From an uncultured bacterium (lineage in GTDB: Bacteria > Verrucomicrobiota > Kiritimatiellia > CAIKKV01 > CAIJXV01), in assembly GCA_903824675.1 (NCBI GenBank), contig CAIJXV010000032.1, forward strand, positions 1 through 64,000: DNA of 64,000 nucleotides, written 5' to 3'. Both the position numbers and the translations under genes were made by a program. Below are positions 459-8,651 of the stretch, in pieces; within the stretch, counting starts at the first letter, position 1; each line of letters begins with the position of its first letter. The notes beneath the pieces were generated by a model. It saw nothing but the letters and a program-made list of their open reading frames with translations. It was not told the origin of the DNA and ran no database searches.

Positions 459-1661
459 ATGAAAAGAATCACGTTTCCATCCTGTTTTGCTCTCTGCATT
501 GCTCTCAATTCTTCACCGGCTATCAATAATCCGGTAACGCCCACCACTCCCACCCCCCCCATTAATCTCTCCGCTGCCCAGGCACCCGACGCGATGATTG
601 ACATCTCCCTTATGAATGAAGTCCGGTCTGCTCAAAAACGAGGACTCGATTGGTTGGCCGCCCTACAAAACAATGATGGGTCGTGGTCCACCCCTGATTT
701 CCCCGCCCTCACCGCCCTCCCCCTATGGGCCTTCGCTCTCAGCGATTACCCGAATAAAGGCCCCATCGTTTCAAATGCCGTCCACTACATTCTTCAGTAC
801 GTTCAACCGAATGGGGGTATCTATAAGCCCGCCGAAGGAAAAACAGGAGGCCTTGCCAATTACAATACCGCGATCGCCATGGTCGCACTCCACCTTACCG
901 GCGACCGATCTCTGACACCCATTGTTCTCAAGGCCCGTAAGTTCATCGCCGATTCCCAACATCTTGAAGGCGACGACATGTATAAAGGCGGCATGGGCTA
1001 TGATAAATCGACAGGACGTTCCTATGCGGATTTGAGCAGTTCGGTCGTTGCCTACGAAGCCATGCGCCTAACTCAAGGCGCTGAAGACCTCCGGCCCGCC
1101 GACGAGAAAAAAGCCGATCTGGACTGGCAGGCGGCCACACAGTTTCTCGCCAAAGTTCAAAATCCGCGCTCTGCCGGTGCCGAAAATGCCGGCGGGTTTT
1201 CCTACCGTCCAGACGAAAGCAAGGCCGGAACCGTCACAAACGCCGAAGGCGCTATCGTCTTGCGATCCTATGGCAGTATGTCCTATGCGGGACTTCTTAG
1301 TCTGATTTATGCCGAAGTCGACCGAAATGATCCCCGCGTCAAATCTGCCTTTGATTGGGCGATGAATCATTGGTCTATCGAAGAAAACCCCGGCATGGGA
1401 TCTCAAGGTCTCTTTTATTTTTACAATATTATGTCTAAGTCCCTCGCCACGTTCGGCCGCGATGTCCTTCCCGTTCCTAACTCCACCCCTATCGCCTGGC
1501 GCAAGGCGATGATCGAGAAAGTAATCTCCCTCCAGAAAACCGACGAAAAAACTGGCGCTGGATATTGGGTTAATCAAAATAATCGCTGGATGGAAGGTGA
1601 TCCGATCCTGGTCACCTCTTACTCCCTGATCGCATTGAATATCGCCGTTGGCGGTCGCTAA
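459..1661 (+). CDS. Secreted prenyltransferase/squalene-cyclase-like alpha-alpha toroid repeat protein
   Basis: N-terminal signal-like segment; repeats of the type RGLDWLAALQNNDGSWSTPDFPALTALPLWAF and GAGYWVNQNNRWMEGDPILVTSYSLIALN. Confidence 0.7.
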   Translation: MKRITFPSCFALCIALNSSPAINNPVTPTTPTPPINLSAAQAPDAMIDISLMNEVRSAQKRGLDWLAALQNNDGSWSTPDFPALTALPLWAFALSDYPNKGPIVSNAVHYILQYVQPNGGIYKPAEGKTGGLANYNTAIAMVALHLTGDRSLTPIVLKARKFIADSQHLEGDDMYKGGMGYDKSTGRSYADLSSSVVAYEAMRLTQGAEDLRPADEKKADLDWQAATQFLAKVQNPRSAGAENAGGFSYRPDESKAGTVTNAEGAIVLRSYGSMSYAGLLSLIYAEVDRNDPRVKSAFDWAMNHWSIEENPGMGSQGLFYFYNIMSKSLATFGRDVLPVPNSTPIAWRKAMIEKVISLQKTDEKTGAGYWVNQNNRWMEGDPILVTSYSLIALNIAVGGR

Positions 1662-1880
1662 AAGTGTCCCGCCCCAATTAAATAACATTGCGGGTCCTTT
1701 ACCCCCCCTAAAAAAAACTAGCCGTTATTGGCCTTTCCCGATCGTCTTCACGCATAGAACCCGGACACTAAATGCCTGATTCGGCTCGAGTTTTCGGACC
1801 TTCGGAGGACGATCGTCACCACGCTTGAAATGAAAACGGGATGTGGTACGATTCGAGCAACCTTTGGTTTGGAGGTGACC

Positions 1881-2372
1881 ATGTTTATCCATCGTGTACT
1901 GTGTATTGTATGTGTCGGTTGCGCTCTGGCCCTGCCCGCCATCGCTGCCCCCGCGTCGGGATTGAGTGTCCAGGTCCGCAAGGCCGACGTCCGCAGCACT
2001 CCCTCCTTTCTCGGGGCCATCGTCGGATCCCTGGTCTATGCCGATCGCGTAACACAGGTCGAAAAAAAGGGCGACTGGATTAAGATTAGCCGCGACGGTA
2101 CCCCCCTCGGCTGGGTTCACCAGCAATCCCTCACCTCCAAACAGATCGTCCTGAAAGGCGGGGAGGTCGCCAAAACCGGCGCCTCCAGCGATGAACTCGC
2201 CCTCGCCGGCAAAGGCTTCACGGAAGAAGTCGAAAAGGAATACAAGGCGCAAAACAAAGATATCGATTTCGCCCCCATCGATCGCATGGAAAAAATCACG
2301 ATCGCTCCGGAAAAACTCGCCAAATTTCTAAAAGCCGGTGACGTCAGCCCCGCCGCGGGAGACACCCTGTGA
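1881..2372 (+). CDS. Secreted SH3b-domain protein
   Basis: Signal peptide MFIHRVLCIVCVGCALALPAIAA, then an SH3-like VQVRKADVRSTPSFLGAIVGSLVYADRVTQVEKKGDWIKISRDGTPLGWVHQQSL. The start at 1881 is preceded by GGAGGTGACC. Confidence 0.75.
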   Translation: MFIHRVLCIVCVGCALALPAIAAPASGLSVQVRKADVRSTPSFLGAIVGSLVYADRVTQVEKKGDWIKISRDGTPLGWVHQQSLTSKQIVLKGGEVAKTGASSDELALAGKGFTEEVEKEYKAQNKDIDFAPIDRMEKITIAPEKLAKFLKAGDVSPAAGDTL

Positions 2373-3484: not shown

Positions 3485-5641
3485 ATGAAAATCTCATCCT
3501 CCAGCACGGTCGCAAAATTAATCCAAGGCCTCCTGATCGGGCTTTTATTTGCCTTGCCGGCCCTGTTTCTTTTCCAGACCGATCGGCTTGATCTCCTGGA
3601 ATACAAAACCTGGGATTGGCGGGTTAAACAATTCGCCAGCCCCCGCCCATCTTCCAGCCAAATCCGCCTGATTCTTCTGGACCAATATAGTTTGGACTGG
3701 GGAGCCAAGACCATGAAGCTGCCCTGGCCCTGGCCCCGGGAAGTGTATAAGCCTATTCTCGATTTCTGCGCCCGGGGTGGCGCAAAAGTGGTCGCCTTTG
3801 ACATGCTCTTCACCGAGCCCTCCGTTATGGGCGTCGAGGACGATGCGCGCCTTGCCGAAGGGATATTGGCCGTCCCCGAATTCATCGGCGCCGCGCAACT
3901 GAGTCGCTCTGATGGCACAACCACCCATTGGCCCGACGATACGGATAACCTGCGTATCCCTCCCCTCATCGTCGACCCGGCGATTTCCAACCAGCTCGAT
4001 CATTTCACGTTTCCAAACGCCACCTTGCCGATCCCCGAAGTCCTGACCAATGCCACCGCCCTGGCCAATGTCTTCGGAAATCCGGACCGGGACAGCATCT
4101 ATCGTCGGATTTCACCCCTCGCCCGCTTCGATGGTCAATGGGTTCCCGCCCTTGGCTTCAGCGCCTATCTGGCGGGAGGCGGCATCGATTCCAATACCCC
4201 TCTCCGCTTGACCGCCCAGGGACTCCAGCTCAAAGGAAACCGGCTCCTACCCCTCGATCACAATGGACAAGTCATCCTCCGATTCCGCGGAGCCTCCCAA
4301 ACTCACCGCGCCTTTAACGCGGCGGCGGTTATCCAATCCGAAATCGCCTGCCAGGCGGGCACGCCTCCACCCATCGATCCCACAGAGTTTCGCGATAAAT
4401 ATGTCTTTTTCGGGACCACCGCCCCGGGCCTCTTTGACTTGCGCCCAACTCCCGTCAGCTCCGTCTATCCCGGCGTGGAAATCCATGCCACTTTGCTCGA
4501 TAATCTCCTCGAGCTCGACAGCCTGCGCGAGATGCCCACCGGATGGGTCGTCGGACTGACCCTGATCCTGACTTTGTTCGCCGCCGGAATCGCCCGTATC
4601 TGTCGATCCGGCCTGCAAATCCTCATCCTCGCAATCCCCATTCTGCTCCTGCCCTGGGTCCTCGGCTGTGCCGCCTATACCCATGGATATTGGCTCCCCA
4701 TGGTGGTCCTCTGGACGGGTTCATTACCCGCCCTGATCGCCGTTCTCGGGGTCAATTACGCCGTTGAAGGACGCCAGAAACGCTATCTCAAAAACGCCTT
4801 CCGGCAATATCTCAGCCCCATCGTGATCGACCAACTCGTCGCACATCCCGAACGCCTGCGGTTGGGCGGCGAACTCAAGGAGTTGACCATCTTCTTCTCA
4901 GATGTTCAGGGATTCACCTCTATTTCTGAAAAACTCGACCCCCAGCAATTGACCGAATTTCTAAACACGTATCTGACCGGTATGACCAATATCATCCTGG
5001 AGGAAGGTGGCACGGTCGACAAATATGAAGGGGACGCCATCATCGCTTTCTGGAATGCCCCGACCGATCAGGCGGACCATGCCCGACGCGGGGTCCGCGC
5101 CGCCCTGCGATGCCAAGCCCTGCTCGCCGAAAAACGCGACGAATGGGCGGCTCGTTATGGCTCGAAAATATTTATGCGCGTCGGCATGAATACCGGCCAG
5201 GTGGTCGTCGGGAACATGGGGTCCGATCAACGCTTCGATTATACCTTCCTCGGAGACGCCGGCAATCTGGCCGCCCGACTCGAAGGGATCAATAAAAAAT
5301 TCGGTACCTATTACATCATTTCCGAAGCGACTCGGAAGCGACTCGGGTCTGAATTCCATGGTCGGGAAATTTCCCGCATCACCGTCGTCGGTCGCCGCGA
5401 ACCCGTGCGCATTTTTGAACCCGTGACGGAAGAAACAGAAAACCAGAACGAAACCCTCTATGCCGGATTTGCCGCCGCTCTACAGGATTATTACGCCGGC
5501 CGTTTTGGCGAAGCCCATCGTAAATTCGGCGCATTCCAAGATCAGGATCCCATTTCCGCCCGCTACGTCGCCCAGTGCGAGGAACTCATCCTCCACCCCC
5601 CCAAGGAATGGACCGGTGTCTGGTCCATGACGGAGAAGTAA
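3485..5641 (+). CDS. Adenylate/guanylate cyclase with N-terminal CHASE2 sensor and TM segments
   Basis: CHASE2-like N-terminus, TM helices about aa 350-420, class III cyclase core LKELTIFFSDVQGFTSISEKLDPQQLTEFLNTYLTGMTNIILEEGGTVDKYEGDAIIAFWNAP. Confidence 0.92.
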   Translation: MKISSSSTVAKLIQGLLIGLLFALPALFLFQTDRLDLLEYKTWDWRVKQFASPRPSSSQIRLILLDQYSLDWGAKTMKLPWPWPREVYKPILDFCARGGAKVVAFDMLFTEPSVMGVEDDARLAEGILAVPEFIGAAQLSRSDGTTTHWPDDTDNLRIPPLIVDPAISNQLDHFTFPNATLPIPEVLTNATALANVFGNPDRDSIYRRISPLARFDGQWVPALGFSAYLAGGGIDSNTPLRLTAQGLQLKGNRLLPLDHNGQVILRFRGASQTHRAFNAAAVIQSEIACQAGTPPPIDPTEFRDKYVFFGTTAPGLFDLRPTPVSSVYPGVEIHATLLDNLLELDSLREMPTGWVVGLTLILTLFAAGIARICRSGLQILILAIPILLLPWVLGCAAYTHGYWLPMVVLWTGSLPALIAVLGVNYAVEGRQKRYLKNAFRQYLSPIVIDQLVAHPERLRLGGELKELTIFFSDVQGFTSISEKLDPQQLTEFLNTYLTGMTNIILEEGGTVDKYEGDAIIAFWNAPTDQADHARRGVRAALRCQALLAEKRDEWAARYGSKIFMRVGMNTGQVVVGNMGSDQRFDYTFLGDAGNLAARLEGINKKFGTYYIISEATRKRLGSEFHGREISRITVVGRREPVRIFEPVTEETENQNETLYAGFAAALQDYYAGRFGEAHRKFGAFQDQDPISARYVAQCEELILHPPKEWTGVWSMTEK

Positions 5642-5753: not shown

Positions 5754-6035
5754 TCAGCTCGCTGTCTGCCAGCCGAATCCCTGAAATTCAGATGTGCCGT
5801 GGAATGACCGGCTCTCCGACCGGCTGATTCGCATTACCGGCAGCCAACGAACGTCTTGCTTTGACCACGCCACTTTCATGCGCAAGCCCATCAAACCCAA
5901 TCCCACCGCCCAGCCGCTCAAAACCAGAACCGACCGTTTAACGGCCAGTTGCCGAATCTGACTCTTGACACGCACCGCCTCCTGATCCAACTCCCGCCGC
6001 CGACCCTCAATTTGCACCCGATTCACTTTTTTCAT
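5754..6035 (-). CDS. Small putative single-TM membrane protein divergent from lexA
   Basis: About 93 aa from MKKVNRVQIEGRRREL. Start preceded by AAGGAAAAAGCC; TM-like SVLVLSGWAVGLGLMGL. No family recognised. Confidence 0.5.
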   Translation of the reverse strand: MKKVNRVQIEGRRRELDQEAVRVKSQIRQLAVKRSVLVLSGWAVGLGLMGLRMKVAWSKQDVRWLPVMRISRSESRSFHGTSEFQGFGWQTAS

Positions 6036-6059
6036 GGCTTTTTCCTTCATTCTTTTTTG

Positions 6060-6102
6060 TTTACATGCCGCACAGAATAGACTATACATTTGTACAGGTC
6101 AA
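6060..6102. promoter_or_regulatory. Divergent overlapping sigma70-like promoters with a LexA-box-like sequence
   Basis: Rightward TTTACA (6060-6065)-17 nt-TATACA (6083-6088). Leftward TTGACC (6102-6097)-17 nt-TATTCT (6079-6074). Operator-like CTGTACAAATGTATAG (reverse complement of 6082-6097), one mismatch from CTGT-N8-ACAG. Confidence 0.6.
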
Positions 6103-6121
6103 GCGATTTTTGGAGATTTTT

Positions 6122-6745
6122 ATGGAACCCATGACTGAACGACAGGCTGACATTCTCCGGTTTATCCGCGATGAGATTCATTCCCGGGGCTGTCCCCCAA
6201 CAGTGCGCGAAATCGCCCGCCGCTTTGGTTTCGCCTCGCCTCACGCAGTCACCGAGCATCTCGACACCCTCGTCCGTAAGGGATATATCACCCGCGCCGG
6301 CCGCCAAACCTCCCGTGGAATCCGCCTGACCCAGGGGGTGCCCAACGGCATCCCCCTCGTCGGACGGGTCGCCGCCGGCACTCCGCTCGAAGCCATCGAA
6401 AACCTGGAAGGCCATATCGACCTCCCCGACCACTTCGGCAGTGGGGAAATTTTCGCGGTCCGCGTCCAAGGCGACAGCATGCGCGATGCCGGCATCCTCG
6501 AAGGGGATTGCGCCATCATCCGACTCCAACCCCGCATCGATGACGGGGCCATTGGCGTGGCCATCCTCGATGGCGCGGCCACGGTCAAGTATGTTTTCAA
6601 AACCCATCAGGGTTATCGTCTTCAACCCGCCAACCCCGCCTATCAACCCATCGAGGTCTCGCCCGATGAACATCCGGATTTCCGGATTGCCGGCCCCATG
6701 GTCGGCCTCGTCCGCAAAATGAGCCGCGGTTTTGGACCTGGGTAA
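6122..6745 (+). CDS. lexA: LexA repressor (SOS regulator, S24 peptidase)
   Basis: MTERQADILRFIRDEIHSRGCPPTVREIARRFGFASPHAVTEHL wHTH; Ala-Gly cleavage region VGRVAAGTPL; GDSMRDAGILEGDCAII and ATVKYV catalytic Ser/Lys regions. Confidence 0.96.
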   Translation: MEPMTERQADILRFIRDEIHSRGCPPTVREIARRFGFASPHAVTEHLDTLVRKGYITRAGRQTSRGIRLTQGVPNGIPLVGRVAAGTPLEAIENLEGHIDLPDHFGSGEIFAVRVQGDSMRDAGILEGDCAIIRLQPRIDDGAIGVAILDGAATVKYVFKTHQGYRLQPANPAYQPIEVSPDEHPDFRIAGPMVGLVRKMSRGFGPG

Positions 6746-6853: not shown

Positions 6854-7294
6854 ATGAACACGCCCCATACATGCATCCTGCCGCTGGGTCGGTTTGAACC
6901 GCCCTCGGTCTGCCGACGCCCGCTCGTGGGTGCCCGGATTTCGGCTGGATTCCCTTCGCCCGCTGATGACTTCATCGATCGCAAACTCGACCTCAACGAA
7001 CTCCTCATTCACCACCCGTCCGCCACGTTTTTCGTCCGTGTTGAAGGGTCATCGATGACGGGCGTCGGCATTCATCCCGGCGATATCCTCGTCGTCGACC
7101 GCTCACTGGAGCCGTCCGACCACAAAATCATCATTGCGATTCTCAATGGCGAACTGACTGTTAAACGCATTAGTCGACGCAACGCCAAATTGTTTCTCCT
7201 CCCCGAAAATCCCGCCTTTCAACCAATCGAAGTCACCCCGGACATCCAGTTTGAAGTCTGGGGCGTTGTCACCAGTGTGATCCATTCCCTATGA
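6854..7294 (+). CDS. umuD: UmuD-type S24 peptidase, DNA polymerase V accessory subunit
   Basis: AGFPSPADDF cleavage site, VEGSSMTGVGIHPGDILVVDRSLEP, NGELTVKRI; immediately upstream of umuC. Confidence 0.93.
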   Translation: MNTPHTCILPLGRFEPPSVCRRPLVGARISAGFPSPADDFIDRKLDLNELLIHHPSATFFVRVEGSSMTGVGIHPGDILVVDRSLEPSDHKIIIAILNGELTVKRISRRNAKLFLLPENPAFQPIEVTPDIQFEVWGVVTSVIHSL

Positions 7295-7301
7295 GCCGCC
7301 C

Positions 7302-8651
7302 ATGCCCCCTGTCTTCGCCCTTGTGGATTGCAACAACTTCTACGCCTCATGCGAACGGCTCTTTAATCCCCGCCTGATCGGTCAGCCGATCATCGTTCTC
7401 TCGAACAATGATGGCTGTGTGATCGCCCGTTCGAATGAAGCCAAGGCCGCCGGCATCGCCATGGGCCAACCTTTTCACGAATGCGCAGGTCTTATCCACC
7501 GGCATCAGATCGCCGTCTTTTCAGCCAATTTTGGCTTATACGGCGACCTATCCCATCGGGTCATGCAAACCCTGGAGCGATTCACCTCCGCCATGGAAGT
7601 CTACTCCATTGATGAAGCCTTCCTCACCCTGCCCGTCCAGCCCGGTGAAGACCCCGCCCCCCTCGCCCATCGCATTCGTCAAACCATCCGCCGGGAAACC
7701 GGCCTCCCGGTTTCCGTCGGCATCGGACCCACCCGGGTTCTCGCCAAACTGGCTAACGAAATTGCCAAGCATACGCCCGCCCTCAATGGGGTATCGAACC
7801 TGATACCCCTGTCAAACCGCAACGATTGCCTGGCCCGGACACCGGTCGAAGAAGTTTGGGGTATTGGATCCCGTCTGACCCGCCGACTGGCAGCCATCGG
7901 CATCCACACGGCCGCCGACTTGCGAGACGCCGATCCGTCGCGGATTCAAACCGTATTAACGGTGCAGGGAACGCGAATCGTGCATGAATTGCGAGGCCGG
8001 GCCTGCATCCATTTGGAGGACTTGGCGGCTCCGCGGAAAACACTGACCTGTTCCCGATCGTTTGGCCGTCCCGTCACCGGCCTGGATGAACTCCGCGAGG
8101 CCGTCGTGGCCTATGTCAGCCGCGCGGCGGAAAAACTGCGCGCTCAACATTCACTGGCTGAAGCGCTGCAAATTTATATCCGCACCAATCCCTTCCGCCC
8201 CACCGACCCGCAATATAGCGCCACCGCAACCCTGCGCCTGCCCGTACCCAGCGATCACACCCCAACCCTGGCCGCAGTTGCCGGACGGGCCGTGGCCACC
8301 ATTTATCGATCCGGTTATGTGTATCACAAGGCGTCCGTCCTACTCTTCGGCCTTTGTGCGAGAGAGCACCGCCCGCTCGATTTATTTGCATCAGCTTCGG
8401 CAACGGATGTCATCCGACAGACCCGCCTGATGACAGCGCTCGATTCGCTCAATGCGACATTCGGCAGGCATACGGTACAAGTGGCCTCGGCAGGTTTGGA
8501 AAAGCCCTGGAAAATGCGCCAGAATCACCGCTCGCCCTCCTTTACGACCCGATGGACGGAACTCCCCGTTGTCTCCGCCGGGTGCGAGCGGCCAAAGAAA
8601 AAAATGGAAATGCCGTGCACTTCCGTTTGGCCACGTGTATCACACAGCTGA
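7302..8651 (+). CDS. umuC: Y-family DNA polymerase UmuC
   Basis: ALVDCNNFYASCERLFNPRLIGQPIIVLSNNDGCVIARSNEAK; SIDEAFL; C-terminal PSFTTRWTELPVV. Confidence 0.95.
   Translation: MPPVFALVDCNNFYASCERLFNPRLIGQPIIVLSNNDGCVIARSNEAKAAGIAMGQPFHECAGLIHRHQIAVFSANFGLYGDLSHRVMQTLERFTSAMEVYSIDEAFLTLPVQPGEDPAPLAHRIRQTIRRETGLPVSVGIGPTRVLAKLANEIAKHTPALNGVSNLIPLSNRNDCLARTPVEEVWGIGSRLTRRLAAIGIHTAADLRDADPSRIQTVLTVQGTRIVHELRGRACIHLEDLAAPRKTLTCSRSFGRPVTGLDELREAVVAYVSRAAEKLRAQHSLAEALQIYIRTNPFRPTDPQYSATATLRLPVPSDHTPTLAAVAGRAVATIYRSGYVYHKASVLLFGLCAREHRPLDLFASASATDVIRQTRLMTALDSLNATFGRHTVQVASAGLEKPWKMRQNHRSPSFTTRWTELPVVSAGCERPKKKMEMPCTSVWPRVSHS

Follow-up and report, generated by a model that had tools for sequence, protein, structure and literature searches.

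A candidate small membrane-protein gene divergent from lexA behind a probable LexA operator in an uncultured Kiritimatiellia bacterium

Introduction

The small proteins YneA, SosA, DivS and ChiZ are recognised by the position of their genes near lexA and are largely unrelated in sequence (PMC6851548). Because these proteins have so little sequence in common, missing similarity to any of them still leaves room for a further analogue beside the lexA gene of another genome. SosA of Staphylococcus, for instance, is a 77-aa protein encoded divergently from lexA and controlled by LexA, with its membrane segment at residues 10-30 and no LysM domain (PMC6851548).

Here we analyze a 64,000-nucleotide stretch (the window) of contig CAIJXV010000032.1 from an uncultured bacterium of the class Kiritimatiellia (assembly GCA_903824675.1), in which the span 5754-6745 comprises a small open reading frame (ORF) and lexA, separated by an intergenic region of 86 bp. 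A first-pass annotation had put this ORF forward as a possible counterpart of the division inhibitors found beside lexA. Our best reading is that it probably encodes a lineage-specific, LexA-repressed small membrane-associated protein.

Materials and methods

A phase-aware fourth-order Markov model, for which 366 kb of the window genome served as training sequence, was used to score coding potential. An operator consensus, CTATACANNTGTATAG, was derived from relatives, and the regulon was checked through a pattern search of the complete 4,243,228-base (4.24-Mb) assembly. All relatives compared lie outside the family of the window genome; the order comprises 17 genomes, most of them without a close LexA.

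Results

The lexA gene (6122-6745, plus strand, 207 aa) matches TIGR00498 at 185.7 bits, against a cut-off of 110.95, and most likely starts at ATG 6122, with GGAG at 6112-6115. Its product joins a winged-helix domain to an S24 peptidase with an intact A85-G86 cleavage site and S119/K156 dyad and, judged by its sequence, is a genuine LexA. Downstream of it on this strand are a umuD-like gene (6854-7294, 146 aa; NF007621, 165.5 bits; Pfam PF00717) that retains the S24 peptidase dyad, and a umuC-like gene for a Y-family polymerase (7302-8651, 449 aa) with the Pfam domains IMS, IMS_C and DUF4113 and a match to NF002955 of 405 bits, under the cut-off of 431. The interval from lexA to umuD showed no further LexA box, so the three genes probably form one operon.

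Upstream of lexA, the 16-bp near-palindrome CTATACATTTGTACAG (6082-6097) is the only site in the assembly with at most one mismatch to CTATACANNTGTATAG. Two mismatches admit one additional site, as they do for a control pattern, and three yield 24 sites versus 69 for the control, which amounts to no general excess. Conservation of the site at lexA is directly observed: the perfect 16-mer precedes lexA, in one copy per genome, in three relatives (G012, G063 and G028), and the variants CTATACGCTTGTATAC, GTATACACCCGTATAG and CTGTACACAAGTACAG are among the boxes before the lexA genes of others. Because lexA genes of different families carry it upstream, CTATACATTTGTACAG can very probably be taken as the group's LexA box, in keeping with the shared LexA-like operator that the first-pass annotation had placed between the divergent genes. 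A promoter-like element read by eye, TTTACA-17-TATACA (6060-6088, plus strand), leads into lexA, and the operator overlaps its -10.

Before recA, no LexA box was found in the window genome, G063 or G028, where the best candidates carry six mismatches. A broad LexA regulon in the window genome was rejected on this ground and on the lack of any excess of boxes. With recA devoid of a box, the circuit looks local: judged by CTATACANNTGTATAG-type motifs, LexA looks like a local rather than a global regulator, acting on lexA-umuD-umuC and the divergent ORF. Several genomes of the class likewise carry the box essentially once, at lexA, and have a recA without one, so that the LexA circuit there may be local or minimal. 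Such a circuit, in which lexA-umuD-umuC are the sole other predicted targets of the box, would suit a lineage-specific accessory, neither toxin nor division inhibitor, of the mutagenesis operon or of the LexA circuit itself, such as a membrane tether or a modulator of UmuD/UmuC or RecA. In the relatives fetched, however, umuDC adjoining lexA is not a conserved feature, which makes the co-occurrence uninformative, and we know of no such small partner of UmuDC, which also counts against this role; we regard it as distinctly unlikely.

The small ORF occupies 93 codons of the minus strand (6035-5754) and is oriented away from lexA, with the coordinates and direction previously assigned to it, and its ATG is preceded by the expected Shine-Dalgarno-like AAGGAA (6042-6047, minus strand). 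An alternative in-frame ATG at 6089, which would extend the protein to 111 aa, falls inside the operator box and lacks a Shine-Dalgarno sequence, and the start at 6035 is therefore preferred. A promoter-like element, TTGACC-17-TATTCT (6074-6102, minus strand), leads into the ORF with the operator as its spacer; it is a consensus match only, and chance would give 0.7 elements of this kind over the 1.8 kb that were scanned. A gene that converges on the small ORF (3485-5641) encodes a CHASE2 and adenylate/guanylate cyclase protein, which matches Pycsar cyclase models, probably through the shared cyclase domain only.

The length of the ORF is not significant by itself, as an ATG ORF this long occurs in 17% of shuffled 480-bp gaps. 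The codon statistics, which had been named beforehand as a possible ground for dismissing the gene, divide it in two. Residues 1-60 score 0.175 per codon, which ranks at the 57th percentile among segments of real genes; not one of 492 wrong-frame ORFs reaches this value, nor does any of 2,495 ORFs drawn from Markov-random sequence, whose highest score is 0.104. Residues 61-93, on the other hand, score -0.165, at the 0.8th percentile. The corresponding stretch of the window (5754-5855) is thus non-coding-like, yet its frame remains open; a frameshift was rejected as the source of this anomaly, since none of the other frames is coding-like there.

These figures bear on the proposition that the ORF is a product of chance or decay, in which case the operator would serve lexA-umuDC only and the minus-strand frame would have no product or be a relic. 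Its orphan status, the frequency of equally long ORFs in shuffled gaps and the non-coding-like tail all suit that account, but the codon statistics of residues 1-60 lie beyond every chance ORF tested, and the good ribosome site and promoter-like element are rightly placed for a gene. We hold a chance or decaying frame to be a minority possibility, if a serious one, and regard the small ORF as probably a real gene, at any rate across codons 1-60.

Residues 1-34 of the predicted protein have a net charge of +7 and show a heptad pattern formed by I9, L16, V23 and L30. They are followed at residues 35-51 (5883-5933, minus strand) by SVLVLSGWAVGLGLMGL, a stretch of 17 uncharged residues, four of them glycines, flanked by R34 and R52, with K54 beyond. 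The basic N-terminus and single hydrophobic segment originally described are thus both real, though the latter is marginal as a membrane segment: it averages 1.51 on the Kyte-Doolittle scale over 19 residues, where the usual cut-off is 1.6, its biological-scale sum is +1.3, and 6% of spurious ORFs are equally hydrophobic. The natural, if marginal, prediction is a protein that crosses the membrane once and keeps its N-terminus inside.

A single-sequence AlphaFold model (mean pLDDT 69.5) places a helix at residues 3-60 and renders the remainder disordered and at low confidence; built without alignment depth, it says little beyond the boundary between helix and tail, which independently coincides with that of the coding score. 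The coding score and the model alike fit a real core of 60 residues followed by a tail under little constraint. A Foldseek search of the model, one long helix, against the PDB returned no match, and neither LysM nor any other cell-wall domain was detected with Pfam and NCBIfam.

A short basic hydrophobic protein under LexA control would suit a TisB-like SOS toxin no less than a division inhibitor. A growth brake of this type would perturb or depolarise the inner membrane and leave the divisome untouched. The predicted protein is nonetheless much longer than known type I toxins and has a marginal membrane segment, and Rfam, which had no match in the window, gave no sign of an antisense antitoxin RNA. 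We therefore consider a TisB-like action unlikely.

Searches of 346 genomes of the class and of 388 genomes sampled across the phylum gave no homologue of the small ORF, a negative outcome for the comparison with PVC genomes that had been proposed at the outset. Pfam, NCBIfam, PHROGs and PADLOC contain no family match, in agreement with the initial impression that the protein belongs to no recognised family, and no homologue was found in the PDB, phages or plasmids, nor among GTDB and viral contigs, where the search reaches close relatives only. Two weak hits were rejected as orthologues. In L002 the match covers a single membrane helix within a multi-pass protein of 309 aa that appears CAAX-protease-like by eye, and in L073 it falls on a stop-containing stretch opposite well-formed genes. 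As the relatives all come from other families, the absence of the small ORF from them may reflect loss as well as recent origin.

The suggestion that the gene might keep its place beside lexA in relatives fails, an outcome that the first-pass annotation had named beforehand as refuting its proposal: the ORF is absent from that slot, which holds unrelated genes, and the arrangement of the window is common to none of the relatives examined. In L022 a NIF3-like gene lies beside lexA, about 150 bp from the box, and in further relatives the genes upstream of lexA are on the same strand. In one related family, a headless integron-integrase-like gene is divergent from lexA with the box in between (L024, 788-1435; L026, 779-1435; L028, 841-1497). 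The encoded recombinases, of about 217 aa, lack the N-terminal SAM domain and match TIGR02249 at 33, 41 and 81 bits, respectively; in alignments read by eye the catalytic tyrosine looks lost in L024 and L026, and the first arginine in L028, and these proteins may be DNA-binding regulators or relics. A full integron integrase (107-1480; TIGR02249, 470 bits) was observed in L025 directly downstream of lexA (1501-2091, minus strand), on the same strand. Relatives thus carry quite different genes behind the same operator, and given this variety position beside lexA carries less weight and is not evidence alone.

Discussion

That the small ORF is both a real gene and under LexA control is a joint claim towards which we lean, with modest confidence. 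The operator is unique and lies between the two start codons, the minus-strand promoter-like element straddles it, and the same 16-mer stands before lexA in relatives; the coding score of residues 1-60, the hydrophobic stretch next to a strongly basic helix and the intact cleavage site and dyad of LexA point the same way. Weighing against the claim are the absence of a homologue wherever we searched, the atypical tail, a hydrophobic segment below the usual cut-off, a promoter supported by consensus match only, and the chance that the operator serves lexA alone.

With a control site in common with lexA, the small ORF is probably induced by DNA damage. We infer that it is expressed and that a single LexA operator represses both it and the lexA-umuD-umuC operon; upon DNA damage, active RecA would promote self-cleavage of LexA at A85-G86, and both transcripts would rise together. 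The basic heptad helix and the short glycine-rich hydrophobic segment would most likely bring the product, its N-terminus facing the cytoplasm, to the inner membrane, where it would most likely oligomerise through the helix. For such a protein the likeliest individual role, though still less likely than not, would be a damage-induced brake on division or envelope growth, which we propose tentatively.

The narrower proposal, a functional analogue of YneA, SosA and DivS that is SOS-induced, enters the membrane and blocks the divisome, we rate as rather unlikely. A small product with one candidate membrane segment, encoded next to and divergently from lexA behind a common operator, fits the described pattern (PMC6851548), and together with the coding signal of residues 1-60 these features are the parts of the first-pass proposal that stand. 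The protein has no LysM or cell-wall domain, however, its segment is central rather than N-terminal, and beside lexA in relatives the slot is taken by recombinase-like or other genes, so that conservation, LysM and segment location speak against that proposal. Inhibition of division by the small protein is one plausible conjecture, drawn from genome position only, and rather unlikely. It is improbable, though worth stating, that the ORF represents an SOS effector of independent evolutionary origin: a small membrane protein specific to this lineage that is paired with lexA-umuDC and acts as a damage checkpoint; if it does, this would be a class in which the slot behind the lexA operator is repeatedly refilled with new genes.

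Compared with known systems, the locus resembles SOS mutagenesis operons of the lexA-umuDC style in having lexA, umuD and umuC in succession on one strand behind one upstream box, and differs from them in its divergent orphan ORF and in a recA without a box. Like SosA, the predicted protein is small, has one membrane segment (here marginal and predicted), is encoded divergently from lexA with a LexA box, and carries no LysM; unlike SosA, whose gene is conserved at lexA across staphylococci, it appears in no relative searched, and its segment lies at 35-51 instead of 10-30, clear homology being neither expected nor found. YneA of Bacillus, ChiZ/Rv2719c of Mycobacterium and DivS of Corynebacterium, all from Gram-positive bacteria, share with it a small size and a place next to lexA and have the single membrane segment and LexA control that are predicted for it (PMC6851548), whereas YneA and ChiZ carry the LysM domain that it lacks. 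The short cytoplasmic N-terminus and extracellular C-terminal domain typical of YneA, SosA and DivS are replaced, as predicted here, by a basic helical N-terminus of 34 residues and by 33 C-terminal residues that are modelled as disordered and are not coding-like. If the resemblance is real, the same solution would have arisen again in a lineage in which no described SOS checkpoint was found, and it would offer a directly testable target.
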